From Spirosoma panaciterrae DSM 21099 (GTDB lineage Bacteria; Bacteroidota; Bacteroidia; Cytophagales; Spirosomataceae), in assembly GCF_000374025.1 (NCBI RefSeq), contig NZ_KB893174.1:1-64000 (forward strand): a stretch of DNA of 64,000 nucleotides, given 5' to 3'. This document shows, in pieces, positions 39,108 to 56,673 of this stretch. The position numbers and the translations under genes are program-made. Position 1 is the stretch's first letter. The number at the start of each line of letters is the position of its first letter. The notes under the pieces are model-generated. The model was not told the origin of the DNA, searched no databases, and saw only the letters and a list, made by a program, of their open reading frames with translations.

Positions 39108-41141
39108 ATGAAAATTAGACTTGCGTTTCACCTGCTTTTATCCAGTATCGCTTTAACGGTGATGGGGCAGGTAAACACCCGTAAAATGCAACCCGTTGCT
39201 TATACAGGCAGCCGGGCTCCTTTGCGTCAGAACCCCTACATTGAACTTCCCCTGGGTGCTATCAAACCGCAGGGCTGGCTCAAAGAAATGCTGATACGTC
39301 AGAAAAACGGCGCTACGGGAAAGCTCGATGAATTGTATCCACTGGTGATGAATCAACGGAATGGCTGGCTAGGTGGCGATGGCGACCAATGGGAACGCGG
39401 CCCATACTGGATTGATGGGCTATTGCCATTGGCGTATATTCTGGACGATCAGGCCTTGATTGCTAAAACCAAACCCTGGGTCGAATGGGCGTTGAACAGT
39501 CAGCAACCCGACGGGTATTTCGGTCCGTCGAAAGATTACGGGCCAGAACGTGGTATTCAACGCGACAACAGCCGCGACTGGTGGCCTAAAATGGTGATGC
39601 TGAAAATATTGAAGCAGTACTATTCGGCTACGGGCGATCAGCGGGTCATTGCGTTGATGACCAATTATTTCAAATACCAACTCAAGGAATTGCCGAAAAA
39701 ACCGCTCGATCACTGGACATTCTGGGCTCGCTATCGGGGTGGCGACAATCTGGCGGTGATTTACTGGCTTTATAACATTACGGGCGACAAATTCCTGCTC
39801 GATCTGGGCGATCTGGTGCATAAGCAGACCTTCGACTATACCGATGGATTTCTGAATACGGATATGCTCAGCAAGCCAGGTAGCATTCACTGCGTGAATC
39901 TGGCGCAGGGGATTAAGGAGCCGATTGTTTATTTCCAGCATCATCCCAACAAAAAATACCTCGACGCCACCAAAAAAGGCTTTGCCGACATTCGAAAATA
40001 CAACGGTATGGCGCATGGGCTGTACGGTGGCGACGAAGCCTTGCATGGCAACAACCCAACGCAAGGATCCGAACTGTGTTCGGCGGTTGAAATGATGTTT
40101 TCCCTGGAAAGTATTCTCGAAATTACGGGCGACGTTGCCTATGCCGATCAGCTCGAAAAAGTGGCGTTTAATGCATTGCCCACGCAGGCATCCGACGATT
40201 ACATGACCCGCCAGTATTTCCAGCAGGCCAATCAGGTGATGGCAACCCGGCATATTCGCAACTTCGATGTAAATCACGGCGGCACCGACCTTTGCTTTGG
40301 ACTGCTGTCGGGCTATCCCTGCTGTACATCGAATATGCACCAGGGCTGGCCCAAATTCGTCCAAAACCTTTTCTACGCTACGGCCGACAAAGGCATTGCC
40401 GCTTTGGTGTATTCGCCCAGCGAAGTGACGATGACGGTTGGCAACAATACAACCGTTTCGGTAAAAGAAGAGACGGTTTATCCATTCGAAGAAACCATAA
40501 AGTTCACCATCAACCTCGACAAGAGTGGTAAATCCGCTACGTTCCCGTTTCATCTTCGCGTACCGGCATGGTGTAAAAAAGGAACGGTAAAAGTAAATGG
40601 AAAGGTAGTGAAAGAGTCGGAAGGGAATCAACTGGTGAAAGTTGACCGTGAATGGAAATCGGGCGACGTCGTGGAGCTGGAACTACCGATGCATATTTTC
40701 AAAAATACCTGGTATGAAAACTCGATGTCAGTTGAACGCGGCCCCATCACGTATGCGCTGAAAATTGGCGACGAAGTGAAGACTGTGAAAAATGACAAAG
40801 ACCCCATTGAATACGGTGCAACATACAACGAACTTCGGCCAACAACGCCCTGGAATTATGCACTGGTTCAGGTGCCGGAAAACAAACTGGCAGATCAGTA
40901 TACGGTCAAAAAAGTAAAGCCAGTTTCTGACTATCCGTGGAACCCGGAAAATGCGCCATTGCAGATCAAAACCAAAGGTCGCCGGATTCCGTCGTGGAGT
41001 ATTTACAACGAAATGGCGGGCCCTATACCATACAGTCTGACCTATCAATTGGAGACGGCTAAAGACCTGGAAGACATTACGTTGATTCCATACGGCTGTA
41101 CGAATCTGCGCATTTCACAATTTCCGGTGGTTCGAAAATAA
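39108..41141 (+). CDS. DUF1680 family glycosidase (GH127-like), first copy
   Basis: A 677-residue secreted protein (signal peptide to VMGQ) with an (alpha/alpha)6 barrel and C-terminal beta domains. The residues that hold zinc and act as nucleophile in GH127 beta-L-arabinofuranosidase HypBA1 (Glu338, Cys340, Cys417, Cys418) have counterparts Glu322 and Cys324 in SELCSAVE, and Cys405-Cys406 in YPCCTSNMHQGWPKF. It is clearly divergent from the second copy (41234), so the two probably act on different linkages; relation to other DUF1680-type families such as GH146 cannot be excluded. It is co-directional with the whole PUL. Confidence 0.85.
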   Translation: MKIRLAFHLLLSSIALTVMGQVNTRKMQPVAYTGSRAPLRQNPYIELPLGAIKPQGWLKEMLIRQKNGATGKLDELYPLVMNQRNGWLGGDGDQWERGPYWIDGLLPLAYILDDQALIAKTKPWVEWALNSQQPDGYFGPSKDYGPERGIQRDNSRDWWPKMVMLKILKQYYSATGDQRVIALMTNYFKYQLKELPKKPLDHWTFWARYRGGDNLAVIYWLYNITGDKFLLDLGDLVHKQTFDYTDGFLNTDMLSKPGSIHCVNLAQGIKEPIVYFQHHPNKKYLDATKKGFADIRKYNGMAHGLYGGDEALHGNNPTQGSELCSAVEMMFSLESILEITGDVAYADQLEKVAFNALPTQASDDYMTRQYFQQANQVMATRHIRNFDVNHGGTDLCFGLLSGYPCCTSNMHQGWPKFVQNLFYATADKGIAALVYSPSEVTMTVGNNTTVSVKEETVYPFEETIKFTINLDKSGKSATFPFHLRVPAWCKKGTVKVNGKVVKESEGNQLVKVDREWKSGDVVELELPMHIFKNTWYENSMSVERGPITYALKIGDEVKTVKNDKDPIEYGATYNELRPTTPWNYALVQVPENKLADQYTVKKVKPVSDYPWNPENAPLQIKTKGRRIPSWSIYNEMAGPIPYSLTYQLETAKDLEDITLIPYGCTNLRISQFPVVRK

Positions 41142-41233
41142 GTGGTAAACCAGAAACCAGATCAGAATGATTAACCAGGACTTGAAAGACCTTAACTAAT
41201 CTTAATGATCTGTATTACAAAGCGATAACTGAA
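41142..41233. repeat. Imperfect inverted repeat between the two DUF1680 genes
   Basis: The 92-bp gap holds CAGATCA near 41158 and TGATCTG near 41207, and AT-rich words such as ATGATTAACCAGGA that resemble palindromic intergenic repeats of Cytophagales. The match is partial. Confidence 0.3.
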
Positions 41234-43207
41234 ATGAAAATGTTAAACAAAGTTACCTGTACTTTAGCCGTACTCGCTTTCGCTCCAGTATCAGCAAAAG
41301 CGCAATTGATGGTTCAGCGATTTGAGCCGGTTGGTTTTTCGCAGGTTACGATTACCGACAATTTCTGGAAACCCAAATTGGATAAAGTGGCTACGGCTAC
41401 GCTTCAGGCCTGTATTGTGCAGACCGAGCAGAAAACCGGACGTATCCGCAATTTCGAGAAAGTGGCCCGCAAACAGGGTGAAAAACACGAGGGCATCTAC
41501 TATGACGACAGCGACGTATACAAAGCCATTGAAGCGATGGCCTACTCGCTCAAAAACCATCCCGATGCTGCTGTTCAGCAGAAAGCCGACGAATGGATCG
41601 ACAAGATTGCAGCCGCTCAGCAACCGGATGGCTACCTCAATACGTATTACACGCTGACGGGCCTCGACAAACGCTGGACGGATATGGAACGGCACGAAGA
41701 TTACTGTGCAGGCCACCTGATCGAAGCCGCCGTTGCCTATTACAACACCACAGGCAAACGGAAACTGCTGGATGTAGCCATTCGCTTCGCCGACCATATC
41801 GACGAGACGTTTCGGATCAAAAATCGGCCGTGGGTGAGCGGTCACCAGGAAATTGAACTGGCACTCATGCGTCTATATCACCTCACCAAACAGGAACGCT
41901 ACCTGAAACTGGCCGACTGGTTTCTGGATCAACGCGGGCGTGGCTACGGCAAAGGAAAAATCTGGGATGAATGGAAAAATCCGAAATACTGCCAGGACGA
42001 CGTACCCGTTAAGCAGCAGAAGGAAATCACGGGCCATGCCGTTCGGGCGATGTACCAGTACACTGGTGCCGCCGACGTAGCATCGGTAACCAACGACCCC
42101 GGCTATATGAACGCCATGACCGCCGTTTGGGAAGACGTGGTTCACCGGAACATGTATCTGACGGGCGGCATCGGTTCATCGGGGCACAACGAAGGATTTA
42201 CCGACGACTTTGACTTGCCGAACGGTTCGGCCTATTGCGAAACCTGCGCGTCGGTTGGTATGGTATTCTGGAACCAGCGCATGAACCTGCTCACTGGCGA
42301 AAGTAAATACATCGACGTATTGGAACGTAGTCTATACAACGGCGCGCTGGATGGACTGAGCCTGAGTGGAGATCGGTTCTTCTACGGAAATCCATTGTCG
42401 TCGGTGGGTAATTACGGGCGTAGCGAATGGTTTGGAACGGCCTGCTGCCCCTCCAACATTGCCCGGCTTGTAGCCTCGCTGGGCGATTATATCTATGGCC
42501 GTTCGGAGAATGGAATCTGGGTAAATCTGTTTGTGGCCAGTAACACGACGTTCAAGTTTGGCAAAACTGACGTACCGCTTCAGCTTGACACCAATTATCC
42601 GTGGGATGGCAACGTAAAAATCACGGTCAACCCGGCTAAAAAAGTAGCGTATGCCCTGCACGTCAGAATTCCCGGCTGGGCTACAAATGTGCCAGTTCCG
42701 GGCAAGCTGTATGAATTCACAAACACCAGTGATGCCAAAGCTGAGGTGCTGATAAATGGGAAACCCGCTACGTATCGTGTCGAAAAAGGCTATGCCGTTA
42801 TTGACCGGACCTGGCAGAAAGGCGACGTAGTGGAGGTGAAATTGCCGATGGATGTACGGCAGGTAGCGGCACGCAGTGAAGTAAAAGCCGATCAGGACCG
42901 GATTGCTCTGCAACGCGGCCCTTTGGTTTACTGCGTCGAGGGCGTCGATAATTCGGATAAAGTCTGGAATTTACTGGTTCCGGCTCAACCTACTTTCGAA
43001 ACCAAACCACATCAGGTACTTGACGAACCCGTTGTGGCCATTCAGGCTCATTTATCGGTTGTGGAAGCCGCTCCCGATGGGCTGAGCATTCAGACAAAAC
43101 CCCAAACCATTACGGCTATTCCCTACTATACCTGGGCCAATCGCGGGAAAAGTACCATGCAGGTCTGGTTGCCGAGCCGGATCAGAGCGATAAAAATTTC
43201 GGAGTAA
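41234..43207 (+). CDS. GH127 beta-L-arabinofuranosidase-type glycosidase, second copy
   Basis: A 657-residue secreted protein (signal peptide to VSAKAQ) close to HypBA1-type GH127 in motif content: DSDVYKAIEAMAYSL, NTYYTLTGLDKRWTDME, GHLIEAAVAYYNTTGKR, HNEGFTDDFDLPNGSAYCETCASV and WFGTACCPSNIARLVASLGDYIYG. The Glu336 and Cys338 of CETC and Cys404-Cys405 form the expected zinc/nucleophile site. Such enzymes remove beta-L-arabinofuranose from hydroxyproline-linked arabinans or from arabinan-containing pectin side chains. It is the last gene of the PUL. Confidence 0.9.
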   Translation: MKMLNKVTCTLAVLAFAPVSAKAQLMVQRFEPVGFSQVTITDNFWKPKLDKVATATLQACIVQTEQKTGRIRNFEKVARKQGEKHEGIYYDDSDVYKAIEAMAYSLKNHPDAAVQQKADEWIDKIAAAQQPDGYLNTYYTLTGLDKRWTDMERHEDYCAGHLIEAAVAYYNTTGKRKLLDVAIRFADHIDETFRIKNRPWVSGHQEIELALMRLYHLTKQERYLKLADWFLDQRGRGYGKGKIWDEWKNPKYCQDDVPVKQQKEITGHAVRAMYQYTGAADVASVTNDPGYMNAMTAVWEDVVHRNMYLTGGIGSSGHNEGFTDDFDLPNGSAYCETCASVGMVFWNQRMNLLTGESKYIDVLERSLYNGALDGLSLSGDRFFYGNPLSSVGNYGRSEWFGTACCPSNIARLVASLGDYIYGRSENGIWVNLFVASNTTFKFGKTDVPLQLDTNYPWDGNVKITVNPAKKVAYALHVRIPGWATNVPVPGKLYEFTNTSDAKAEVLINGKPATYRVEKGYAVIDRTWQKGDVVEVKLPMDVRQVAARSEVKADQDRIALQRGPLVYCVEGVDNSDKVWNLLVPAQPTFETKPHQVLDEPVVAIQAHLSVVEAAPDGLSIQTKPQTITAIPYYTWANRGKSTMQVWLPSRIRAIKISE

Positions 43208-44132: not shown

Positions 44133-44513
44133 ATGAAACGGTCATCTGCTGCTCAGATTCAGCATAAGTTTGAACCGAACCAGATTCTTTACCTCATCGG
44201 AGATGTAAACTATAGTTCGGTTTATTTATGTGACGGAACGGTCATCCTGTCTAGTAGAACCTTGAAATGGTATCATACCAAGTGGCCACATTTTATTCGT
44301 ATTCATAAGGCTACCTTGATTAATCCGCTGTATATCCAAAGTTGCAGTGTACTTTCCTGCATACTGGCGCAGATTACCATGCAAAACGGCGTCACAATGA
44401 CCATCAGCCGTCGGCGTATTCATGACGTACTCGATCATTTGCAACTGCCCTATATGCGTTCTGAAATAGCGCAATGGAATGATTATGCTATACCCGAGAT
44501 AAAACTTGCCTAA
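44133..44513 (+). CDS. Orphan LytTR DNA-binding protein A
   Basis: A 126-residue protein from ATG 44133; in-frame upstream sequence is AT-rich and non-protein-like. Almost the whole protein is one LytTR-type domain: LYLIGDVNYSSVYL, ILSSRTLKWYH, WPHFIRIHKATLINPLYI, and TMTISRRRIHDVLDHL. It has no receiver domain and no membrane segment. A close relative is encoded at 53332, sharing the SSRTLKWYH and WPHFIRIHK blocks. It precedes a LytS-type kinase gene by 160 bp, so it may be an accessory transcription factor of that system. LytTR domains normally bind tandem DNA repeats. Confidence 0.75.
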   Translation: MKRSSAAQIQHKFEPNQILYLIGDVNYSSVYLCDGTVILSSRTLKWYHTKWPHFIRIHKATLINPLYIQSCSVLSCILAQITMQNGVTMTISRRRIHDVLDHLQLPYMRSEIAQWNDYAIPEIKLA

Positions 44514-44673
44514 ACCACATCTGGTACCGATCTGTGGTTTGGAACCAACTGACTGGGTTGATTTTCCGGGCCGCCGGAGTACCAGGCGCTTCAAATAGTA
44601 AGCCCAGGAGCTACCTTACTTTATTGAGAAATCAATACCTTAGAGGGGTTCAATACTGCCAGTTACGTAACTT

Positions 44674-47600
44674 ATGGGCCTTCGTACAATTCTGCTGCTC
44701 GGAATACTGGTTGCTGCTGTAAGCATCTGTGCAGGGCAGGCACACGAGGGGATTCACTTTTCGCATTTATCGGCTGATCAGGGACTGTCTCAGAATGCTG
44801 TACTCTGTATCTGGCAGGATAAGGAAGGGTTTCTTTGGCTGGGTACCCGCGATGGGCTTAATAAGTATGATGGGTATTCGTTCACAGTCTATAAGCCAGA
44901 CCCTTCAGACCCTGCGAATACGTTTTCACATAATGTGATCACCGATATTTGTGAGGATCGGGCCGGGCGGATGTGGGTGTCTACGTTAGGAGGTGGATTA
45001 CATCTGTTCGATCGGCGGACTGGTAAGGCAACGGCCTACCGTATTATCAACCCGGAACGCATTTCCCTGCGGAATGTGATGTATGCTATCGAAGAGGACC
45101 ACGAGGGAATGTTGTGGATAGCATCGCGGGAAGGCCTGACCCGATTCGACCCAAACTCCAGAACCTTTACCTTATACGATAGTTTCAATGCAGCCAGGCC
45201 TGATGTGTACACCATACAGGAAGATAAACGGGGGCAACTATGGGTGGGGACACAGGACGGCTTATATCGGTTCGATCCAGTTTCAAAAACGTCCCAGAAT
45301 GTGGCGCTGCCTGTAACCAGTGCCGATACCAATCGATCCATTTCGACACTATTGGCTGAGCCCAGCGGGACAATATGGGTGGAATCCTTTGCGGGGCAAT
45401 TATACCGAATAGGGGCAGAAGGAAAGCCTGTACGTTGCTCATTACCTCAGCCCGAACAGGCACCGCAACGGGTTACTTCGCTCACGGGAGCGCTTTTGAA
45501 GGATCGGGCCGGGCAGATATGGACTGCCCCTCCTGGCCTCAACCGGCTAATTCGATTTAATCCAGCTACTCATCAATGGGTTCAGTTTCAGGCAGATCAG
45601 TTGCGGCCTGGGAGTCTGAGTAGCCATTCCATCTATGCATTATTTCAGGATCGGGAAGGGATCGTATGGGTAGGTACCAACAATGGGGTAGATAAATTAA
45701 GCCCAACGCCTGATAAATTTCGGTCTTATCAAATCATACCAAACACGAGTCATGTGCGATTGCCACAGAATAGTATTCGGGCGATTGCTCAGGATCATTC
45801 TGGGCGAATCTGGCTGGCCAATGAGTCGGATGGTTTAGTGTCTTTTCAGCCATCGACGGGTCTGTACCGTGTTTACCCGGCCAATCCAGCGGTTGCCAAT
45901 CAATTGTACAGCCAAACCGTCAATGCCCTCTGGTGCGACCATACTGGACGTGTATGGATAGGAGCAGGTTCGTATCTTCACCTTTACGACCCAAAGACCG
46001 ATCGTTTTGTGCGGTACCCCTGTGCCATTAGTGTCAGGAGCATTCGGGAGGGAGTAGGTGGTGAACTCTGGATTGCCGGAACCGGATTGGCTCGTTTTGA
46101 TACACAGACACATCGGTTTACCTACTATCATCATGATCCCAAAAATCCGGCCAGTTTGGGCGATGAGGGATTGATTTTGGCGTTACCTACTCAGGATGGA
46201 ACAGTCTGGGCTGCCTCGACCCGGCGGGGAATCAGTCGGCTGACGATCAAAACAGGCCGTTTTGAGCAGTATCAACCCGATTATCGACGGTCTACCAATT
46301 CCCTGAATGATAAGGATATACGCTGTATCTATCAGGACCGGAGCAGCCGTATCTGGATAGGGACCAACCAGGGTGGGCTAAATCTGTACAACCCTGTCAC
46401 CAACACCTTCAGGGCATTTACGACGCATGATGGATTGCCAGGTAATCATATTGCAGGTATTCTCGATGATGAAGCGGGTAATTTGTGGTTAGCGACGAAT
46501 CAGGGCATCTGTCGTTTCAATCCACAGACCGGGCTTTGTCAGAACTATGACAAAAGCGATGGCCTGCAGGGGAATGAATTTTTCGAAGCGTATGCGCAGG
46601 GTATCCATCATGAGTTACTGATGGGGGGCGCCAACGGATTCAGTATATTTTCGCCCCGCAGTGTTCAGACAAATACTCGTATACCACCCGTCTACATTAC
46701 TAAAGTACAGATTGGGTCCAGAACGGAATCGCTCCCCCAACGTTCATTGGTTCTGTCGCACAACGACAACTACCTGTCGTTCGATTTTCTGGCTCTCAAT
46801 TATATTCATCCTGAAAAAAATAAATACGCTTACCAACTGGTCGGTGTCGATAAGAATTGGATTTTCTGTGGTACCCGTCGATTTGTAAGTTATGCAAACC
46901 TGCCACCGGGTACGTATCAGTTTCGGGTGAAAGCCTCCAACAACGATGGGGTATGGAATCAGGCCGGAACTTCGCTGGGCATTACCATCAATCCTCCCTT
47001 TTGGCAGACAAATTGGTTTGTATTGCTGCTCTGCGGTGGGGTGGCTGGAGCGTTGTATCTGGGCTTTCGGTACCGGGTACGACAGATTAAACGCGAAGAA
47101 AGTCAAAAGACCGAGGTAAATAAAAAGATGGCCGAAATGGAAATGCAGGCATTGCGCGCTCAGATGAATCCCCATTTTATTTTTAACAGCCTGAATTCCA
47201 TTAACCGATTTATCATGAAAAACGAATCGGAATCGGCATCGGCTTATCTGTCAAAATTTTCGAAGCTGATCCGGTTGATTCTAAACCGATCCACAGCTGA
47301 ATTGGTTACCCTTGAGAGTGAGCTGGATACGCTTTCGTTGTATCTGGAACTGGAATCGCTCCGGTTTTCGGGGCGATTTACGTTTGCTATCCAGGTTGAT
47401 CCAGCGATTGAGTCGGCTTATACCGAGATTCCCCCGATGCTCATTCAGCCCTACGTAGAAAACGCCATTTGGCATGGATTAATGCAGAAAGAAGCAGGTG
47501 GGCATATTTTGATCAGGATTCAGCAACAGGGAAAGCAGTTGGTTTGTACTGTAGAAGATAACGGGGTGGGTCGGCAGAGAGCGGCCGAGTTGAAAAGCAA

Positions 47601-47766
47601 GTCGGCTACCCATACCAAGTCGAGGGGTATGCAAATTACCGCCGACCGATTGAAGCTCAGTCAAACTTTGTATGGCCAGCAGCCTACGGTTACGATTCAT
47701 GATCTGGTGGATGCACTGGGTGAGCCTGCCGGAACGCGTGTTGTATTGACCATTCCCCTCCTATAG
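44674..47766 (+). CDS. Reg_prop/Y_Y_Y sensor with LytS-type histidine kinase
   Basis: A 1030-residue membrane kinase. After the signal peptide (to SICAG) come two seven-bladed propellers of reg_prop repeats (about 30-680: GLSQNAVLCIWQDKEGFLWLGTRDGLNKYDG and similar), then a Y_Y_Y domain (about 690-785), one transmembrane segment near 788-808 and a His_kinase (PF06580) domain with phospho-acceptor His834 in QMNPHFIFNSLNSI, followed by an HATPase domain with VENAIWHGL and VEDNGVG. Unlike the usual hybrid PUL regulators it lacks a fused receiver and AraC domain; its partner is the LytTR response regulator encoded 17 bp later. The ligand may be a glycan of the PUL upstream. Confidence 0.92.
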   Translation: MGLRTILLLGILVAAVSICAGQAHEGIHFSHLSADQGLSQNAVLCIWQDKEGFLWLGTRDGLNKYDGYSFTVYKPDPSDPANTFSHNVITDICEDRAGRMWVSTLGGGLHLFDRRTGKATAYRIINPERISLRNVMYAIEEDHEGMLWIASREGLTRFDPNSRTFTLYDSFNAARPDVYTIQEDKRGQLWVGTQDGLYRFDPVSKTSQNVALPVTSADTNRSISTLLAEPSGTIWVESFAGQLYRIGAEGKPVRCSLPQPEQAPQRVTSLTGALLKDRAGQIWTAPPGLNRLIRFNPATHQWVQFQADQLRPGSLSSHSIYALFQDREGIVWVGTNNGVDKLSPTPDKFRSYQIIPNTSHVRLPQNSIRAIAQDHSGRIWLANESDGLVSFQPSTGLYRVYPANPAVANQLYSQTVNALWCDHTGRVWIGAGSYLHLYDPKTDRFVRYPCAISVRSIREGVGGELWIAGTGLARFDTQTHRFTYYHHDPKNPASLGDEGLILALPTQDGTVWAASTRRGISRLTIKTGRFEQYQPDYRRSTNSLNDKDIRCIYQDRSSRIWIGTNQGGLNLYNPVTNTFRAFTTHDGLPGNHIAGILDDEAGNLWLATNQGICRFNPQTGLCQNYDKSDGLQGNEFFEAYAQGIHHELLMGGANGFSIFSPRSVQTNTRIPPVYITKVQIGSRTESLPQRSLVLSHNDNYLSFDFLALNYIHPEKNKYAYQLVGVDKNWIFCGTRRFVSYANLPPGTYQFRVKASNNDGVWNQAGTSLGITINPPFWQTNWFVLLLCGGVAGALYLGFRYRVRQIKREESQKTEVNKKMAEMEMQALRAQMNPHFIFNSLNSINRFIMKNESESASAYLSKFSKLIRLILNRSTAELVTLESELDTLSLYLELESLRFSGRFTFAIQVDPAIESAYTEIPPMLIQPYVENAIWHGLMQKEAGGHILIRIQQQGKQLVCTVEDNGVGRQRAAELKSKSATHTKSRGMQITADRLKLSQTLYGQQPTVTIHDLVDALGEPAGTRVVLTIPLL

Positions 47767-47783
47767 CTCCTGCCTTTATAGCC

Positions 47784-48524
47784 ATGATGATTAAAGCAGT
47801 TATTATTGATGATGAAGAGCACTGCCGGGAAACACTTTCCATGCAATTGGAAAAGTACTGCCCAGACGTAACTGTTGTGGCCACGTTTGCGTCAGCAATG
47901 GCGGGGTTACCGTATCTTCAGCAAACACCGCCCGATTTGTTGTTTCTGGATATTGAAATGCCTCTGCTAAATGGGTTTGAACTATTGGAAAAGCTACCAG
48001 CCGTGCCTTTTGCCATTATTTTCACGACTGGCTACGATATGTATGCCATAAAAGCCATTCGATTTAGTGCACTGGATTATCTGCTCAAACCCATTGATCG
48101 GGACGATTTGCAGAAAGCAGTGGGAAAATTTCAGCGAAAGTCGATCGCTCAGATGGCGCAGCAGATCGAAATATTGGTTGAAAAATTGGGCGCTAAAAAA
48201 GTTCGGCAGAAAATTGCCCTGCCAACCGCTCATGGGTTTGATGTGATACCGACCGATACTATTGTCCGTTGTGAAGCCGATGACAATTATACCCATGTTG
48301 TTTTAAAAACCGGCAAATCGTTGTTGGTCTCCCGAACGCTCAAAGAAATCGAAGAACTGTTGGCTGGAGAGGGATTTCTGCGAATTCACCAGTCGCACCT
48401 GATCAATCTGGATGAACTGCAACGCTATATACGGGGTGAAGGAGGGTATGTGGTTATGAGTGATAACTCGTCCGTTCCCGTTTCAAGGAGTCGTAAGGAA
48501 GTGCTGCTAAATCGATTCGCCTAG
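47784..48524 (+). CDS. LytTR-family response regulator
   Basis: A 246-residue protein with receiver domain (about 1-120; acidic pocket Asp9/Asp10, phospho-acceptor Asp56 in FLDIEMPLLNG, Lys in LKPID) and LytTR DNA-binding domain (about 140-246; VIPTDTIVRCEADDNYTHV, FLRIHQSHLINLDEL, VPVSRSRKEVLLNRF). It starts 17 bp after the LytS-type kinase and forms a two-component system with it. ATG at 47787 is equally possible. The gene ends the pair; no T-rich terminator immediately follows. Confidence 0.93.
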   Translation: MMIKAVIIDDEEHCRETLSMQLEKYCPDVTVVATFASAMAGLPYLQQTPPDLLFLDIEMPLLNGFELLEKLPAVPFAIIFTTGYDMYAIKAIRFSALDYLLKPIDRDDLQKAVGKFQRKSIAQMAQQIEILVEKLGAKKVRQKIALPTAHGFDVIPTDTIVRCEADDNYTHVVLKTGKSLLVSRTLKEIEELLAGEGFLRIHQSHLINLDELQRYIRGEGGYVVMSDNSSVPVSRSRKEVLLNRFA

Positions 48525-48561
48525 GGCTGTTACTACTCATTCATTCTTACCAATTACTCGC

Positions 48562-48780
48562 TCAATACCGCCAACCACTCAATTCGGATTGAATTGATAC
48601 CCGTCCTTTCGTAGCATTAGCCATCCATGAAGCGATCGCTTTGATGGCCTGTGTCTCTAAAACCAATGGAGTAGCCTGCAACGGATACACATGTTCTGTC
48701 GTAAAGCCCTTAGAAACGGATGCAAAATCGAAATCAGGAAGCAGTTCGAGTTTACAGACCGGGGCCAGACAAACCCGATT
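48562..48780 (-). pseudogene. Possible remnant of a gene (about 70 codons, no start)
   Basis: On the minus strand a frame runs from a stop at 48781-48783 to the stop at 48562-48564 without a usable start codon but with coding-like composition (LELLPDFDFASVSKGF and AIKAIASWMANATKGRV). It looks like the C-terminal part of a lost protein; I do not recognise it. It could also be chance. Confidence 0.3.
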
Positions 48781-48810
48781 TTATATAGGATTCAAGTAAG
48801 AAGAGTGTTG

Positions 48811-48841
48811 AAGGGTTTGTCTGGTTAGATAAACCCTTTTT
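48811..48841 (+). terminator. Hairpin with T tract just before the small HTH gene
   Basis: A 12-pair stem including one G-T (48811-48822 with 48827-48838, loop GGTT) followed by TTTTTG. It lies 48 bp before the start at 48889 and 287 bp after the response regulator, so it is either the terminator of that unit or a leader attenuator of the HTH gene. Confidence 0.65.
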
Positions 48842-48888
48842 GTCGATAAACGCTTTCCAGATTTGCTGGAGTAAACCAATGAAAGTGC

Positions 48889-49212
48889 ATGAATAAAGGA
48901 CGAAAGCCAGCGATCAACGGCAAATGGCTGGAAGAGGCACTGGAAGCCCAGGGGTATAATATCCATGCGGCTGCCAGGCTGATCGGCGTTGAAAGCCGGA
49001 TATTGTACGCACACAAGGCAGGTCAGACTACAATCTCGACGGGGGTGCTCTTTGCTTTATGTTCAGCTTTACCCACCCTGTCGGAACGCTATGTGCTGAC
49101 AGGACGAGGGCCTAAAGTAGTGCCTTCGGCAGAAACGGACGAAAATCTTTTGCTGGAGTCGTTTCAAATCAAGAAGTCCATCGAGCGAATTCTCAATGCG
49201 CTGACTTCGTAG
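48889..49212 (+). CDS. Small HTH (XRE-like) protein
   Basis: A 107-residue protein. The segment NGKWLEEALEAQGYNIHAAARLIGVESRILYAHKAGQ has the spacing of an XRE-like helix-turn-helix (about residues 12-45), followed by a helical part (GVLFALCSALPTLSERYVLTGRG) that resembles the end of phage-type repressor domains and an acidic C-terminus with a short helix (SFQIKKSIERILNAL). Probably a DNA-binding regulator. It is followed after 150 bp by the first small paralogous protein. Target unknown. Confidence 0.65.
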   Translation: MNKGRKPAINGKWLEEALEAQGYNIHAAARLIGVESRILYAHKAGQTTISTGVLFALCSALPTLSERYVLTGRGPKVVPSAETDENLLLESFQIKKSIERILNALTS

Positions 49213-49365
49213 TAAGCTTGGCGCATGTGCAAGTAGGGGAGGTTATATCCATACGTCAGGCCATGGTGGGAGTACTCCGTTTTTTCGTAACGAAAATGCT
49301 ATAAACAGCTCAAATTCGTTAACTCAAAGGCGGAAATGGTGTTTTAGAGGAAATAACCTGAACGA

Positions 49366-49596
49366 ATGGAAATAACGCACGATTTACTTGTTGGCTTAGG
49401 CTTTCGGTGGATACCGGGGCATCCACTGAAATACATCTACAAAGACTTTTCGGGCCAATTGGAGCCAGAAAGCGGCATTTTTTTCTTTGACGATTTTACA
49501 CTTCCCATTATCCAGTTCACCGATTTACTCTACCTGTTAAAATTGATCAACTTTCCTGCGCAACCGGAGCAATTGCCCATGGTAAATCCGAATTAA
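49366..49596 (+). CDS. Small protein of unrecognised family, copy A (76 aa)
   Basis: A 76-residue protein (MEITHDLLVGLGFRW). A second copy of 77 residues is encoded at 53749; I count 29 identities in the first 61 aligned residues without gaps. Shared positions are M-x-ITH, LGF, the Pro/Tyr/Tyr-Lys pattern, Gly and Pro pairs, DF, PI, F-x-DL, LL and LI. There is no signal peptide, no membrane segment and no known motif. It may be a small beta/alpha partner protein. The hybrid kinase gene begins 314 bp downstream. Conservation of two diverged copies argues it is real. Confidence 0.7.
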   Translation: MEITHDLLVGLGFRWIPGHPLKYIYKDFSGQLEPESGIFFFDDFTLPIIQFTDLLYLLKLINFPAQPEQLPMVNPN

Positions 49597-49644
49597 ATCG
49601 GAAGATGCATAGGATTTTATGTGTAAAAAATGACAAACATATGT

Positions 49645-49652
49645 TATTTTTG
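49645..49652 (+). promoter_or_regulatory. Candidate -7 promoter element
   Basis: TATTTTTG matches TAnnTTTG. It lies 49 bp past the small protein gene and 32 bp before a strong hairpin, and 259 bp before the hybrid kinase start. A transcript from it would be very short unless the hairpin is read through. Confidence 0.35.
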
Positions 49653-49683
49653 TAATAAATTCATTTAGTGAATGGTGGGAGTT

Positions 49684-49716
49684 AATCAGGCCGTATTTTT
49701 TAGATACGGCCTGATT
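49684..49716. terminator. 13-bp hairpin between small protein gene and hybrid kinase
   Basis: AATCAGGCCGTAT (49684-49696) pairs exactly with ATACGGCCTGATT (49704-49716) around a TTTTTAG loop, then TTTG. It probably ends the small protein transcript; the rest of the gap to 49911 shows no gene. Confidence 0.7.
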
Positions 49717-49910
49717 TGTACTATGTATTTACCAACAGACTGTACAGTCAACACCCAACGCAGTATTCCGTTGCGGTTTATATTGTGATAGCGGACAAAG
49801 CCACCTGAACATCGACACGCAGCTTCAGTTCAGAGTCAGCATATACCCTCTGGTAAATTTCTGTACTAGCTGTATGATGATAATACATAGATGATCGATT
49901 TTTACATACT

Positions 49911-52814
49911 ATGTGGTTCTGTATCCGGCATTGGCTTGACCAACTTTCCTTCCGACGTCCTACTCTCCGGCAAGCCGAAAAGAATTATATAGGGTTTTGG
50001 TTGTTGATCGGATGTCTGGCTACACTGTTGTTAAGTGTCGATGCGGAAGCCCAACGGGTAGTAAACCAGTTCCCTGCCCCAAATTCGCCAACACCTGTCG
50101 ACGTTCAGTTTGAGTATTTTGTCGATACGACTGATCGGCTGACTGTTGACCAACTGGCCGATCCACAGCTTCATTGGCGACTTGCCCCGGGCACGGGTCT
50201 TATTCTGGGGTTCACACCGCATCCGGTTTGGTGTCGTTTCACCATGCAGCAACCGAAAAACGAGCCTTCCCGGTATGCGCTTGAGTTGACAAATTTTTAT
50301 GTCGACAGCCTTACGCTTTATCAGCCCGATCAGCGTAGTGGCTGGCATATTCAGTATTCGGGCGATCTGATTCCATTGGCCCGGCGAACGCCCGCAACAC
50401 GTTACCCAACGGTATATATACAGGTGCAGGGAACAAACCCCCAAACCATCTATGCACGTATTCAGTCATCGCAGCATCATAGCTATCAATGGCGCGTCTG
50501 GGATCAGGCCGCATTTAATACATTTCGATTACCCGACATTGATCGCTACATCACGTTTTCGCTGGCCATTTTGTTGGCGCTTTTTCAGACTGCCCTGTTG
50601 CTGTTTATGTATCAGTATGGGGTACTGCGCGCTTACGCCTTTTTTGCGTTGGCGGTCGTATTGAGTGTGCTGTTTGCTTCGGGCTATTCGAGTATTTTCT
50701 TCCCTTTTTCGACCTATTGGGCGCATGTCAGTCATTATGTTACGGTGGGGTTGTTATTACCGACCTTGGCATACTACGTCGTTCAGTCGTATCAGCTAAC
50801 AAGGCAGATGCCCCGGCTGGTCTGGGTATATATGGGCTTTGGCGGCATAGGCATAGTCTATGCTATACTCAGTTTTTTTGTCCGTCATCCGTATATAACC
50901 TGGGCGCTTATTGCCACACTGGCGATCATGATGGGTTTTACGCTGCTCCTTCTGATCGGGTTATACTGGCGAGGAGTACGACCGGCTATCTGGAATGTGC
51001 TGGCGCTCCTGATGACATTGCCGGTATATACCTATTTTTATGGCCGGAATGCGGGCTTTTTTACCGGGTCGCTGCGGGAAGAAACCCTACGATTCCTGAT
51101 GTTTATCTGTTTTGCCAGCGAACCGTTTTTTGTTGTGTTAATGCTTTGGCAGGCTACCCGCGAACGGATCCGTACGGCCGAGAGCCTGACCCATGAACAG
51201 GCACGACGCGAAACCATTCAGGAACTTGACCGACTTAAAACTGACTTTTTTACCAATGTGTCGCATGAGCTTCGTACGCCACTTACACTGCTGATCGGAC
51301 CACTTCAGGCGTTGTATACGCGTTATCCTGATCATGAGCTATACGGACTTATGTATCGGAATGCTAGTCGGCTTCAAACGCTCATTAATCAATTGCTTGA
51401 CCTGGCTAAACTGGATGCCCATCAGATGAAAGATTCACCGTCGTTGGGTGATCTGGTAACGGATATCCAGACCTGGGTAGCTGGATTCAGTACGCTGGCA
51501 CAAGACCGATCGATACGGGTCACATTACGGCAAAATCAAACGCACTGGCCCGCTTTGTACGATGCCGATAAAATCGAAAAAGTTCTGTCAAATCTGCTGA
51601 GCAACGCCCTTAAATATACGTCGGCTGGAGGGGCCGTTACGATTGACGTTACGTATTTGCCAACGGATGTACGCATTGAGGTGTGCGACACGGGTGCAGG
51701 CATGTCGGAAGAGGTAGTTTCGAGGGTATTTGACCGATTTTATCGGGGCAATGACACCAACCGACTGGAAATGGGAACCGGGATTGGGCTTTCGCTAACC
51801 TATGAACTGGTTCGGCTGATGGGGGGCGATATCTCAGTGCATAGTCGGCCTGGTGAGGGAACAACGTTTCACGTTTCGATACCCGTTCGGGAGGCCAGGG
51901 AACAGATCCTGGCAAACGAAGGCGATCCGTCGGCAAGTCTACCGGAACTGATCGGCTATGCTGTAGAGGAACCGGGGCTGGAGACAAAAAAGCAGGAAAA
52001 CAGGGAGGGTGAATTGGGTGACCCGTCAGAAAAGCCACTTCTTTTACTGGTGGAGGATAATGATGACCTGCGTATGTATCTGCGGATTATACTGGATACT
52101 ACTTACGCAATAGTCGAAGCGACGGACGGTCGGCAGGCATTGGACAGGGCCATTGAGAGGTTGCCGGATGTTATTGTCACCGATCTGATGCTGCCCCGGC
52201 TTGATGGTTTGGAACTGTGTGCGGCTATACGGTCCGACCCACGTACAGATCACATACCTCTGGTGATGCTTACCGCTAAAGCGAGTGTAGCGAATCGGCT
52301 GAAAGGGTTTGAAACCGGGGCGGATGATTACCTGACCAAACCCTTTATACCCGCTGAGTTGCTGGTGCGGTTAACAAACCTCCGCCGTCGGCAGGTGGCT
52401 CAACAGCTTCATTGGCAACGAACGTTGGCGAGGGGTATGGCTGAATCGGCAGTACCGAAACCGGGAAATCCCGACTATTCAGAGCCACTTCGTTCGGACA
52501 GCTCGCGGTTTCTAAACCAGTTATACGCTATTCTGGAGCAGCACCTCGATCAGCCGGATTTTGATGTTGAGCAGTTGGCCGATGCCCTGGCTATGAGCAG
52601 CCGCACCCTCAATCGAAAACTAAAGGGAGTCCTTGGCCTCAACACACGTGAAACAATCCGTACGTATCGGCTCCGGCGTGGTAACGAGATGCTGGAACAG
52701 GGTATCCAGCCCACACAGGCTGCGTATGCAGTTGGATTTGGGAGCCTTTCTTCGTTTGGCAGGGCGTATAAAGATCAGTATGGATACGCACCATCAGCTC
52801 ACAAAAACAATTAG
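49911..52814 (+). CDS. Hybrid sensor kinase: 7TM-DISM, HisKA, receiver and AraC domains
   Basis: A 967-residue one-protein signalling system. Order: signal or first TM (about 25-47), periplasmic 7TMR-DISM extracellular domain (about 55-200), seven transmembrane segments (about 215-410), HisKA with His452 in FFTNVSHELRTPLTLL, HATPase with NLLSNALKYTS and GTGIGLSLTYELV, a receiver with Asp758 in VTDLMLPRLDG, and an AraC-type HTH at about 860-960 (LADALAMSSRTLNRKLKGVLG, then VGFGSLSSFGRAYKDQYG). Such proteins respond to small ligands in the periplasm and bind DNA directly. A terminator hairpin follows at 52925. Confidence 0.92.
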   Translation: MWFCIRHWLDQLSFRRPTLRQAEKNYIGFWLLIGCLATLLLSVDAEAQRVVNQFPAPNSPTPVDVQFEYFVDTTDRLTVDQLADPQLHWRLAPGTGLILGFTPHPVWCRFTMQQPKNEPSRYALELTNFYVDSLTLYQPDQRSGWHIQYSGDLIPLARRTPATRYPTVYIQVQGTNPQTIYARIQSSQHHSYQWRVWDQAAFNTFRLPDIDRYITFSLAILLALFQTALLLFMYQYGVLRAYAFFALAVVLSVLFASGYSSIFFPFSTYWAHVSHYVTVGLLLPTLAYYVVQSYQLTRQMPRLVWVYMGFGGIGIVYAILSFFVRHPYITWALIATLAIMMGFTLLLLIGLYWRGVRPAIWNVLALLMTLPVYTYFYGRNAGFFTGSLREETLRFLMFICFASEPFFVVLMLWQATRERIRTAESLTHEQARRETIQELDRLKTDFFTNVSHELRTPLTLLIGPLQALYTRYPDHELYGLMYRNASRLQTLINQLLDLAKLDAHQMKDSPSLGDLVTDIQTWVAGFSTLAQDRSIRVTLRQNQTHWPALYDADKIEKVLSNLLSNALKYTSAGGAVTIDVTYLPTDVRIEVCDTGAGMSEEVVSRVFDRFYRGNDTNRLEMGTGIGLSLTYELVRLMGGDISVHSRPGEGTTFHVSIPVREAREQILANEGDPSASLPELIGYAVEEPGLETKKQENREGELGDPSEKPLLLLVEDNDDLRMYLRIILDTTYAIVEATDGRQALDRAIERLPDVIVTDLMLPRLDGLELCAAIRSDPRTDHIPLVMLTAKASVANRLKGFETGADDYLTKPFIPAELLVRLTNLRRRQVAQQLHWQRTLARGMAESAVPKPGNPDYSEPLRSDSSRFLNQLYAILEQHLDQPDFDVEQLADALAMSSRTLNRKLKGVLGLNTRETIRTYRLRRGNEMLEQGIQPTQAAYAVGFGSLSSFGRAYKDQYGYAPSAHKNN

Positions 52815-52924
52815 GTGTCCGATTCCACAGAATTTATCCGCAAACGGTACTGGATCGGTTTGAATAAAAAGTGGGCGTAGGCCAAGCGGAGTCGCTTTGG
52901 GTAAGTCACTCATATGGCTTTATG

Positions 52925-52955
52925 ATCTCAAAGAACGATAGTTCTTTGAGATTTT
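52925..52955 (+). terminator. Rho-independent terminator after the hybrid kinase
   Basis: ATCTCAAAGAAC (52925-52936) pairs exactly with GTTCTTTGAGAT (52941-52952), loop GATA, followed by TTTA. It lies 110 bp beyond the stop of the kinase gene. Confidence 0.75.
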
Positions 52956-52995
52956 AGAAAGAAAAAGTTGTCGAACGGTTAATTGGGTAGAGTTT

Positions 52996-53238
52996 TTGTC
53001 GGGTTCGGTAGAGCCTTCTGGCCGTTCTGAGAAGAAATTTACAGCGAACTGGTTGCTAAGCCTTAGCCAGCAGTTTATGCAGCAAAGCGCGAGCGACCTG
53101 ATCATTGTGCAAAGCGGTGATCTGATTTTAGCAAAAACCGATTCTCCTGTTTGTTCTAACCAGTATGTCAACCTCTACCTGTTTGATCCTGGCTTTCCGT
53201 TTCAGAACGCCCCCCTCGTCTTCCACCTCCAATCGTAA
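52996..53238 (+). CDS. Possible small protein with no clear start
   Basis: An open frame of 80 codons with no good start: TTG at 52996 or ATG at 53076 (MQQSASDLIIVQ, giving 53 residues). The C-terminal part (LILAKTDSPVCSNQYVNLYLFDPGF) reads like a folded domain, but no family is recognised. It is followed by about 90 bp without features before the second orphan LytTR gene. Confidence 0.25.
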   Translation: MSGSVEPSGRSEKKFTANWLLSLSQQFMQQSASDLIIVQSGDLILAKTDSPVCSNQYVNLYLFDPGFPFQNAPLVFHLQS

Positions 53239-53331
53239 ACGTACGCCATCAGCGAAATCGATTGGTCTTTTTCTGCCAGCACCGATCGGGCAGTCGCAAC
53301 ATGTTCTTCTGGCTATTCACATCGGATCATT
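53239..53331. other. Remainder of the gap between kinase terminator and LytTR gene
   Basis: The whole stretch 52815-53331 (517 bp) holds the terminator at 52925 and one doubtful frame. The final part shows no promoter match to TAnnTTTG. Confidence 0.4.
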
Positions 53332-53664
53332 ATGCCAGCAATAGCCGTTCAGACCCCGCCTGCCTTCGATCCATCCCAGGTGATGTACTTAACAGGAGAC
53401 GTCAATTATTGCTTTATTCACCTGAAGGGAGGGGAACAGATTTTATCCAGTCGTACCTTAAAATGGTATCACCAACGGTGGCCCCACTTCATTCGCATAC
53501 ACAAAGGGTATCTGGTCAACCCACAGTATGTGCATCGTTGGGTAGTAATATCGCCTGTGATTGCCTATACGATAATGAGCAATGGGGAGTCGTTATCGAT
53601 TGGCCGTCGGCGGATCGCTTCCCTTTCGAATCAATTCATGAGTCCTGCTGCCCGAGTCACCTGA
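53332..53664 (+). CDS. Orphan LytTR DNA-binding protein B
   Basis: A 110-residue protein related to the one at 44133. Shared blocks are YL-x-GDVNY, ILSSRTLKWYH, WPHFIRIHK, L-x-NP-x-Y and a C-terminal GRRRI or SRRRI motif. It is a single LytTR domain without receiver. The identical block order and spacing show a duplication of the gene, with this copy truncated after the domain. The 77-residue protein copy B starts 84 bp downstream, so the LytTR and small protein genes form a two-gene cassette. Target and signal are unknown. Confidence 0.75.
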   Translation: MPAIAVQTPPAFDPSQVMYLTGDVNYCFIHLKGGEQILSSRTLKWYHQRWPHFIRIHKGYLVNPQYVHRWVVISPVIAYTIMSNGESLSIGRRRIASLSNQFMSPAARVT

Positions 53665-53748
53665 CCCAGGCAAGCATTCAATGCGAGGGGCTGTTTACAA
53701 CTTGTACATAAGGCTTACCATTGTCGATTCATTTTTATCGTAACATTT

Positions 53749-53982
53749 ATGCATATAACCCACCACATTTTACTATCGCTCGGTTTTAAACAGTTAACAG
53801 ATCAGCCTGATTATTATGTATACAAGCACATTCATGGCCGTCTGCTGCCACAAACGGGAGGTTTCCTTTTTCGGGATTTCAGCGTGCCGATCGTTCATTT
53901 TGATGATCTGGTTTTTTTACTCGATTTGATCGATCATCAGGACGAATCGAAACTGATGAAATATCCACTACATTATAATTAA
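53749..53982 (+). CDS. Small protein of unrecognised family, copy B (77 aa)
   Basis: A 77-residue relative of the protein at 49366 (29 identities in 61 ungapped positions): MHITHHILLSLGF, YYVYKHIHGRLLPQTGGF, FRDFSVPIVHFDDL, LLDLIDHQDE. Its C-terminus is different from that of copy A, ending in a His/Asn-rich tail. No signal peptide or membrane segment is present. It follows an orphan LytTR gene by 84 bp and precedes the OmpR/EnvZ pair. The role may be to bind or tune a regulator; this is inference from position only. Confidence 0.7.
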   Translation: MHITHHILLSLGFKQLTDQPDYYVYKHIHGRLLPQTGGFLFRDFSVPIVHFDDLVFLLDLIDHQDESKLMKYPLHYN

Positions 53983-54565: not shown

Positions 54566-55237
54566 ATGAAAGTCCTTTTAGTTGAAGACGAAGAGCGGTT
54601 AGCATCGTTTATCCGCAAAGGCATATCGGCTGAGGGGTATGAAGTCGATGTGGCGTATGATGGTCGTGCGGGGCTATCGTTTTTTCGCAGAGATATTTAT
54701 GATATCATCATTCTGGATGTAAACATACCCCTGCTGAATGGGTTTGATTTATGCCAGTTGATTCGTTCGGAAAATGAGATCGTACCCGTATTGATGCTGA
54801 CTGCGCTCGACAGCCTGTCTGATAAAGCCGACGGTTTCAACGCCGGAGCCGACGATTACCTGGCCAAACCATTTGAATTTCAGGAGTTGCTTTTACGGCT
54901 TCGGGCACTAACCCGCCGGAATGGCCCCAAACAGAAACAACGGCTCCAGTTGGCCGATCTGGAGTTGAATCTGGACACGAAGACCGTGGCCCGGGCGGGA
55001 AAACGCATTGATCTGACCACGCGTGAGTACGCGCTGCTGGAGTATCTGATGCTTAACAAAGGCAAGATTATTTCGCGGGTCGATATCAGTGAGCGGGTCT
55101 GGAGCCTCAATCTCGATAGTAGCACCAATGTGATCGACGTATACATCAGCTACTTGCGCAAAAAAATTGATAAAGACTTTTCGCCCAAACTGCTGCATAC
55201 CATCGTCGGCATGGGGTATGTTCTTCGGGAAGAGTAA
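54566..55237 (+). CDS. OmpR/PhoB-family response regulator
   Basis: A 223-residue protein. The receiver (about 1-115) carries acidic pocket residues in VEDEERL, phospho-acceptor Asp51 in IILDVNIPLLNG, and Lys in AKPFEFQELL. The winged-helix Trans_reg_C domain (about 125-223) has LTTREYALLEYLMLNKGKIISRVDISERVW and TNVIDVYISYLRKKIDKDF, close to CusR/heavy-metal type regulators. The sensor kinase follows at 77 bp. The RND efflux operon downstream is the likely target. Confidence 0.94.
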   Translation: MKVLLVEDEERLASFIRKGISAEGYEVDVAYDGRAGLSFFRRDIYDIIILDVNIPLLNGFDLCQLIRSENEIVPVLMLTALDSLSDKADGFNAGADDYLAKPFEFQELLLRLRALTRRNGPKQKQRLQLADLELNLDTKTVARAGKRIDLTTREYALLEYLMLNKGKIISRVDISERVWSLNLDSSTNVIDVYISYLRKKIDKDFSPKLLHTIVGMGYVLREE

Positions 55238-55314: not shown

Positions 55315-56673
55315 ATGCTCATTCGCAATCGGCTGACGATCATTTTTACGCTCCTGGCGATGGCTATTCAGGTCACGCTATGCTTGCTGGTCTGGTATTT
55401 TTATTCCCTATACCGCCAGGAAGAGTTTTACAGCCGCCTGGAAGGAAAAGCTCGTGTAGCAGGGCGCGTACTAATTTCCCGGAGGCATCTGCACGATGAT
55501 TTTTTTAAGAACATGGTGCGGACTGATTTGTTGACCATTGTTGAGGAGCAGATCAGTATTTTCGACCAACGGCATAATCTGGTATTTACCAATCGAACCT
55601 TAAAAGAATCGGATTATTATAAAGAAAAGATACCTCTGCTGGCAACCAACTCCCTGTTTGAGTTTAAAAACGGCCACTTAGAATCCATCGTAATTCCGTA
55701 CCAGGATCGGGGACAAACGTTTTACATCTTTGCTTCCGGCTATGACCGCATCGGGTTTGCCAAACTGGGTGCTTTGCAGGAAATTCTGCTGCTGGCTAAC
55801 CTTCTGGGTTTTGCCCTCATCGTACTGGCAGGCTGGTATTTTTCAGGCCGGGTATTGAAGCCGATTTCCCGGATTGTTGATGAAGTGGAGCAAATTACCG
55901 CTACGCATCTGCACAAACGGGTCAATGAAGGCAATCAGCGCGACGAAATCGCCCAACTAGCCATGACCTTCAACCAGATGCTCTTTCGGCTGGAAGATGC
56001 CTTTGTTTCCCAGCGTAGTTTCGTGTCCCATGCCTCTCACGAATTGAGAACCCCCTTAACCAATACGCTGGGTACGCTGGAAACTTCATTGCGGTACGAC
56101 CAGAACCCGGCCGACTGGCGGGAGAGTATGGAAGTGGCTATTGAAGAACTTAAAAAAGTGATTGCCCTGACCAATGGTTTACTCGGTTTAGCCAAAGTAA
56201 CCGATGGCCCCGTTCCCCTGACGACCGTTCAGGTTGATGATTGCCTGCTTACGGCGATCGGTCAGGTCCAGGTAAAGTATCCGGGGCGGAATATCCCACT
56301 TCAGTTTAAGGCAGGAGAGGAAGATGGGGTGTTTACGGTCAAAGGCAATACCATGCTCCTCACCACCGTGTTTCTGAATGTGCTGGATAATGCCTGTAAG
56401 TATTCCGATGGGGCAGTGGCTGTTGAATTACAAGCGAAGGAAGGCCAAATCAGTATACGCGTATCCGATCGGGGACGAGGGATTTCCGAAAGCGATATCA
56501 CACACATTTTTGATCCGCTGTATCGCGGTAAAAATGTAGAAGGCGTACCGGGCTACGGAATTGGTCTGGCTGTAACCCAAAAAATCATTGAACTCCACCA
56601 GGGGTACCTCCGAATAGAATCCGTTATGAATCAGGGAACTTCGGTCTTGATTCAATTGCCGAGTCCGATTTAA
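55315..56673 (+). CDS. EnvZ-type sensor histidine kinase with HAMP domain
   Basis: A 452-residue kinase: transmembrane segment about 8-30, periplasmic domain about 31-160, second transmembrane segment near 162-182, HAMP (about 182-235), HisKA with His242 in FVSHASHELRTPLTNTL, and HATPase with NVLDNACKYSDG, VSDRGRGISESD and GYGIGLAVTQKII. It partners the response regulator encoded just upstream. Its extracytoplasmic domain is the size of metal or drug sensors, fitting control of the RND pump downstream. ATG 55315 gives a normal length. Confidence 0.93.
   Translation: MLIRNRLTIIFTLLAMAIQVTLCLLVWYFYSLYRQEEFYSRLEGKARVAGRVLISRRHLHDDFFKNMVRTDLLTIVEEQISIFDQRHNLVFTNRTLKESDYYKEKIPLLATNSLFEFKNGHLESIVIPYQDRGQTFYIFASGYDRIGFAKLGALQEILLLANLLGFALIVLAGWYFSGRVLKPISRIVDEVEQITATHLHKRVNEGNQRDEIAQLAMTFNQMLFRLEDAFVSQRSFVSHASHELRTPLTNTLGTLETSLRYDQNPADWRESMEVAIEELKKVIALTNGLLGLAKVTDGPVPLTTVQVDDCLLTAIGQVQVKYPGRNIPLQFKAGEEDGVFTVKGNTMLLTTVFLNVLDNACKYSDGAVAVELQAKEGQISIRVSDRGRGISESDITHIFDPLYRGKNVEGVPGYGIGLAVTQKIIELHQGYLRIESVMNQGTSVLIQLPSPI

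Follow-up and report, generated by a model that had tools for sequence, protein, structure and literature searches.

Small proteins of probable mobile-element origin in a two-component signalling cluster of Spirosoma

The genes considered here have their closest described counterparts in the LytS/LytR and hybrid two-component systems and in the LytTR Regulatory Systems HdrRM and BrsRM of Streptococcus mutans, in which the inhibitor spans the membrane and the promoter is preceded by direct repeats (PMC6193735). We have analysed a cluster of such genes at positions 44133-53982 of a 64,000-nt stretch of a Spirosoma genome (hereafter the window, genome G000), using a comparison set of 36 Spirosoma genomes (G codes) and loci extracted from the genomes (L codes). 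The domain make-up of the LytS/LytR and hybrid systems in the window is standard; in comparison with these systems, only the neighbouring genes are unusual, namely two small genes for proteins of 76 and 77 residues (A76 and B77) and two orphan LytTR proteins (LytTR1 and LytTR2). On balance, the evidence leans towards A76 and B77 being small proteins of mobile elements that arrived, were duplicated and were then fixed by selection beside older regulatory genes, which would probably make the small protein a passenger that has settled there, not a standard partner of sensors.

The two small genes (A76, 49366-49596; B77, 53749-53982; both on the + strand, as are all other genes of the cluster and its downstream context) encode proteins that are 43-46% identical and form a sister pair in the tree (support 0.82). 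The first-pass annotation had regarded them as an unrecognised family, a view that stands, since there is no Pfam or PHROG match at E ≤ 1; searches of these databases with single small proteins and with a 14-member set yielded nothing reliable (best values 0.084 and 0.16). A two-row profile of the small proteins finds 24 matches in 13 of the 36 Spirosoma genomes, and a 14-row profile extends this to 15 genomes (13 strong, with weak partial matches in G002 and G035). Outside the genus, the 14-row profile recovers two of 186 other genomes of the family Spirosomataceae (G148, E 8e-14; G106, E 0.009), and in an order-wide draw it matches nine of 390 genomes and two of 129 genera: the family is nearly confined to Spirosoma. 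Five of the 24 places found with the two-row profile belong to the window cluster or its orthologues, and 18 of the other 19, two of which lie near contig ends, were examined, leaving out a 39-position fragment with stops (G016:C17). Six weak or partial places of the 14-row profile, in G148, G002, G035 and G106, fall outside the 18-locus counts, and the 3-kb locus of G148 contains no LytTR gene.

These 18 loci are scattered, and at 10 of them the small gene appears as an accessory gene of mobile elements would, in unrelated places and in the vicinity of genes for phage proteins, integrases, resolvases or transposases. In G022 and G015, the small gene is accompanied by umuDC and by portal or head genes of phages, while a head maturation protease is found at one G004 locus and an endolysin together with a Holliday junction resolvase in G014. 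Of the other loci, one in G004 carries umuDC and a resolvase together with an integrase that adjoins tRNA-Ser, and another in the same genome combines umuDC and a resolvase within one 12-kb stretch with tmRNA; an integrase is present in G005, a resolvase on a plasmid in G018, and transposases in G016 and G034. Fixed integrase and resolvase queries matched at five of the 18 loci, as against one of 40 control stretches and two of 35 LytTR loci, the controls being hand-chosen from five genomes (nine from G008, 11 from G022, 10 from G032, seven from G001, three from G003) with none from G004, G005 and G016, which hold half of the 18 copies, and the LytTR loci being the top of the LytTR2 match list, several of them related to each other (window-cluster orthologues, G021:C5:2513 and G032:C2:28199 (internal stop) were skipped). 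One copy of the small protein recurs in identical form on a predicted viral contig, the single hit of the first query against viral contigs; three further small-protein queries found no match there. The possibility that the copies are mostly decayed was rejected, for the stops reported are mostly located past the conserved core, with only two copies, both of G016, being interrupted inside it. In the prophage-like region of G015, a gene for a TIR-domain protein lies directly 3' of the small gene (L034:4916-5761).

Both small proteins are soluble and carry a net negative charge. The maximal 19-residue hydropathy of B77 is 1.35, in comparison with 2.53 for the hybrid kinase of the cluster, and indicates no membrane helix. 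With four relatives, AlphaFold2 models B77 as an α/β protein in the order helix, four strands, helix (pLDDT 85.5, pTM 0.70), and a fold search with this model gave no match in the PDB at E<0.001. Its best viral structural match in Foldseek is an uncharacterised protein of Cellulophaga phage phi17:2 (probability 0.96 but E 0.16, TM 0.54), which we take, by length and motif, to be gp176 of PHROG 32273. The Bacteroidota phage families PHROG 32273 and 10066, with gp176 among their members, have a short motif in common with B77, but they show no sequence match to the small protein and the profile comparison is not significant (hhalign probability 2.9%); the likeness to phi17:2 is therefore only a lead, with the phage family as a candidate homologue. 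The known cargo of Bacteroidota prophages and of integrated elements is extended by a small-protein family that is under selection and has a predicted fold and no database name.

Selection was estimated from the close genomes G000, G001 and G021, with dS of 0.5-1.5, and the genes of the cluster are under purifying selection. Across the three genomes dN/dS amounts to 0.060-0.077 for A76, 0.037-0.071 for the HTH gene preceding it and 0.073-0.142 for LytTR1, while the comparison of G000 with G001 alone gives 0.133 for B77, 0.149 for LytTR2 and 0.136 for the hybrid kinase. The window genome has a third small-gene copy (C31, L039:6956-7189), which is kept in all three genomes under strong selection (dN/dS 0.028-0.040); no LytTR gene was found near it. 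This copy faces a gene of 135 aa.

The remainder of the cluster consists of regulatory genes, the open reading frames of which were all found where the first-pass annotation had placed them, with Pfam domains agreeing with its guesses. LytTR1 (44133-44513), a stand-alone LytTR DNA-binding protein of 126 aa from its ATG (PF04397, 5e-12) with orthologues in G001 and G021, is followed by a LytS-type sensor kinase (44674-47766; propeller repeats of Reg_prop type, Y_Y_Y, His_kinase and HATPase by Pfam), a LytR-type response regulator (47784-48524; receiver and LytTR by Pfam) with relatives across the genus, and a weak HTH protein of 107 aa (48889-49212; HTH_8 at 21.4 bits, below the cut-off of 22). 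Between A76 and B77 are located the hybrid sensor of 967 aa (49911-52814; 7TMR-DISM, HisKA, HATPase, receiver and AraC-type HTH by Pfam), which has matches in six other genomes, and LytTR2 (53332-53664), a stand-alone LytTR protein of 110 aa (PF04397, 5e-12). Downstream, Pfam and genome comparison place an OmpR-type response regulator (54566-55237), which adjoins the cluster also in G001 and G021, and a HAMP/HisKA/HATPase sensor kinase (55315-56673). The genes are real and make up an ordinary signalling cluster, the functions of which we infer.

In evolutionary terms, the entire cluster is carried by G001, and G021 keeps LytTR1, LytS, LytR, HTH, A76 and the OmpR/kinase pair, the block of hybrid kinase, LytTR2 and B77 being missing. 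The simpler reading would be a loss of this block in G021, because LytS identity is higher between G001 and G021 (91%) than with the window (86%). LytS relatives precede LytR in G001, G021, G022, G008, G032 and G003; the orthologues of the last four genomes have no small gene, even in G003, where a relative of the 107-aa HTH gene also follows LytR (L114). The hybrid kinase is found at E ≤ 1e-180 in seven of the 36 genomes, window included, with a LytTR gene 3' of it in four (window, G001, G008 and G002) and not in G016, G014 and the more distant G035; a small gene at this locus is confined to the window and G001, and none of five 9-kb stretches at hybrid-kinase loci outside the window clade contains one. 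In the tree, LytTR1 and LytTR2 are not sisters, LytTR2 grouping with the LytTR that adjoins the G008 hybrid kinase. A local duplication of one module of regulator and small gene was rejected, since the two LytTR genes lack a sister relation and A76 is preceded by an HTH gene; the two layouts are therefore not copies of one unit. The cluster would then have been built from older chromosomal units, that is LytTR1 with LytS/LytR and HTH, the hybrid kinase with LytTR2, and the OmpR/kinase pair, into which a member of the mobile-element family would later have entered; duplication of the small gene in the cluster would have produced A76 and B77, both subsequently retained by selection. On mobile elements, the small soluble protein could be an accessory that binds some host or element factor, and in the window it would probably keep this binding job, expressed from a regulatory neighbourhood, without serving LytTR proteins or kinases as a regular partner.

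Several points weigh against such an origin. The support of 0.82 for the A76/B77 pair is modest, G021 lacks B77, the hybrid kinase and LytTR2 as one block, which agrees with B77 being functionally tied to the other two, and in G034 a LytTR gene lies ~290 bp upstream of the small gene. The eight small-gene loci beyond the 10 with mobile genes are only partly annotated. A point in favour of a mobile origin has its limits: umuD and umuC occur upstream, on the same strand and within ~2 kb, at four of the 18 loci (L033, L034, L037 and L044, prophage-like or integrated) and umuD at none of the 40 controls or 35 LytTR loci, but umuC alone was present at one control and one LytTR locus, and the pattern was counted after it had been seen, at loci that are not independent (three share DNA and two belong to one genome). 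Finally, the umuDC, integrase and resolvase queries matched nothing in the window; hence, we infer arrival by mobile DNA from the relatives.

The first-pass annotation had proposed an accessory signalling module, in which A76 and B77 would act as connectors, modulating signalling by binding to the regulator or kinase next to them. We consider this unlikely, even if it accords with several features of the small proteins: they are soluble and negatively charged with a confident predicted fold, both are kept in place in G000 and G001 under purifying selection, and B77 is absent from G021 jointly with LytTR2 and the hybrid kinase. The proposal implied that other copies of the small gene would also be found next to kinase or LytTR genes. 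A two-component gene lies within 5 kb at three of the 18 small-gene loci and at seven of the 40 controls (p=1.0), and given this lack of excess the claim of a small-protein module fails; LytTR genes are nearby at two of the 18 loci (one with stops in front) and at none of the controls. In addition, the regulators are found also without the small gene, as with the LytS-LytR-HTH orthologues of G003, and those preceding the two small genes are unrelated, an HTH protein before A76 and a LytTR protein before B77. These counts settle a claim of co-occurrence that was convincing by eye, and show that two neighbouring examples were insufficient.

Quite unlikely, in our judgement, is that the small protein and a small RNA at the 3' end of its gene form an RNA-binding or addiction-like pair on mobile DNA. 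This idea derives from a conserved non-coding element directly 3' of A76 (49626-49724, + strand), which is ~97% identical in G000, G001 and G021, compared with a dS of 0.5-1.5 for neighbouring genes, and is found only with A76: the 36 genomes have no other full-length match, and the element stays with A76 in G021, where the hybrid kinase is missing. Its layout comprises a promoter-like TATTTTTG, which we take to be a Bacteroidota-like promoter box, a short hairpin, a GGTGGGAG linker and a strong terminator-like hairpin. The folding beats all 200 shuffles in each of the three genomes (z -4.2 to -5.2), in part owing to the plain terminator hairpin, and from its sequence the element is a candidate small RNA.

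A separate element is distributed throughout the genus. Its ATGGTGTGGATAGAAG core is invariant and is followed by a terminator, whereas the part upstream of the core varies and often looks like a hairpin. Exact copies of the 16-base core are present in 35 of the 36 Spirosoma genomes, mostly without a small gene, and a 19-base core is present in 45 of 222 family genomes (reversed control, 0); the terminator is missing after the core at four of 30 exact-core loci (L205-L234). In 19 chosen copies, five of the 10 pairs of the terminator stem are changed on both sides, a value reached by seven of 500 shuffles, and stem covariation is 0.354 versus 0.160, reached by none of 500. This element lies within ~40 nt of the 3' end, on the opposite strand, of four small genes of G004 and G005 (one weak, E 6e-4) and upstream of one small gene in G034; copies of the element include those at L043:5500-5581, L036:5780-5858 and L044:4341-4420. 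Strong matches to the model occur at five of the 18 small-gene loci and at none of the 40 controls (best control match E 1e-4, partial), but this is not an independent test, because the element was discovered at these loci and one row of the model is the L043 copy, and the controls came from genomes other than those of the matching small genes. The pairing is further weakened by the involvement of two different elements on opposite strands, by the failure of the model to match at A76 or B77, and by the RNA from either element being a candidate transcript only, as predicted from the DNA. Classical type I toxins are small hydrophobic membrane proteins, the toxicity of which is countered by an adjacent RNA, and the small protein lacks the hydrophobic stretch that defines them. 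We give little credence to the broader proposition that members of the family constitute, with a short structured RNA encoded 3' of the gene (in the window, A76 with the element at 49626-49724), an undescribed mobile two-part unit that settled by sensor genes; if true, the RNA link would represent a new kind of small mobile unit. An integron-like cassette suggested by flanking repeats was dropped, since the repeat is the terminator-like element found across the whole genus, and Rfam searches of the window stretch and of loci with the repeat gave, apart from tRNAs, only sub-threshold matches.

The proposed association of stand-alone LytTR proteins with kinases is borne out. Two-component genes lie near 20 of the 35 LytTR loci and seven of the 40 controls (p=6e-4); after collapsing related loci by shared DNA, the proportions become nine of 13 clusters versus seven of 39 when any member is counted (p=0.001) and six of 13 versus seven of 39 when all members are required (p=0.06). 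The link of this family to two-component genes is supported, and the receiver-less LytTR regulators near such genes form a set that is large and expanded. Both orphan proteins of the window, 49% identical to each other, exceed the curated cut-off of PF04397 (46.3 bits each versus 22.6) and, among its receiver-less members, belong to an expanded Spirosoma subfamily starting with MKR..AAQ.QHKF, of which we found no account among the open-licence PMC papers searched. The window genome has 63 LytTR matches, 18 of them in open frames of up to 180 aa (one a 67-aa fragment), and two orphans within 10 kb are therefore less striking than they seem. LytTR2 has matches at E ≤ 1e-8 in all 36 genomes, up to 33 in one, the weaker of which include long frames of receiver size, and at ≥50% identity in eight, with many copies in G003, G008 and G022; it is 79% identical to its G001 copy and up to 67% to others elsewhere, and so closer to these than to LytTR1. 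The stand-alone LytTR proteins would most likely bind DNA and, without a receiver, regulate two-component or target genes in their vicinity. A second stand-alone type (MKRLPGKRGEHHYDPQ-like) accompanies the MKR..AAQ type on the same strand, at a distance of up to ~2 kb, at L116, L117, L123 and L125, in the genomes G021, G035, G008 and G032.

We consider it very improbable that LytTR2 regulates its own gene and is inhibited by B77, as in the LytTR Regulatory Systems, where positive autoregulation is released once the inhibitor is lost. The resemblance is one of order, with a receiver-less LytTR gene preceding a small gene by 84 bp in the same orientation, and G034 has the same order with a clear, 20-bp-spaced direct repeat ~175 bp upstream of its LytTR gene (L046:4990-5030); among the other LytTR genes scanned, those of L129, L127, L121, L116 and L125 are preceded by one to five repeat matches with one mismatch. 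However, the inhibitor is a membrane protein in those systems, while B77 is modelled as an α/β protein without a membrane helix, no direct repeats of ~9 bp spaced ~20 bp apart (≤1 mismatch) occur within 200 bp of LytTR1 or LytTR2, and in G008 and G002 the LytTR gene follows the hybrid kinase without B77. That the small genes are chance open reading frames, which their shortness and lack of a database family might suggest, is refuted by the selection on them (dN/dS 0.03-0.13 at three places), beside which the family core is conserved and the predicted fold confident. Upstream of the cluster, two adjoining open reading frames of 677 and 657 aa (39108-43207) look, from their translations, like related secreted sugar-active enzymes.

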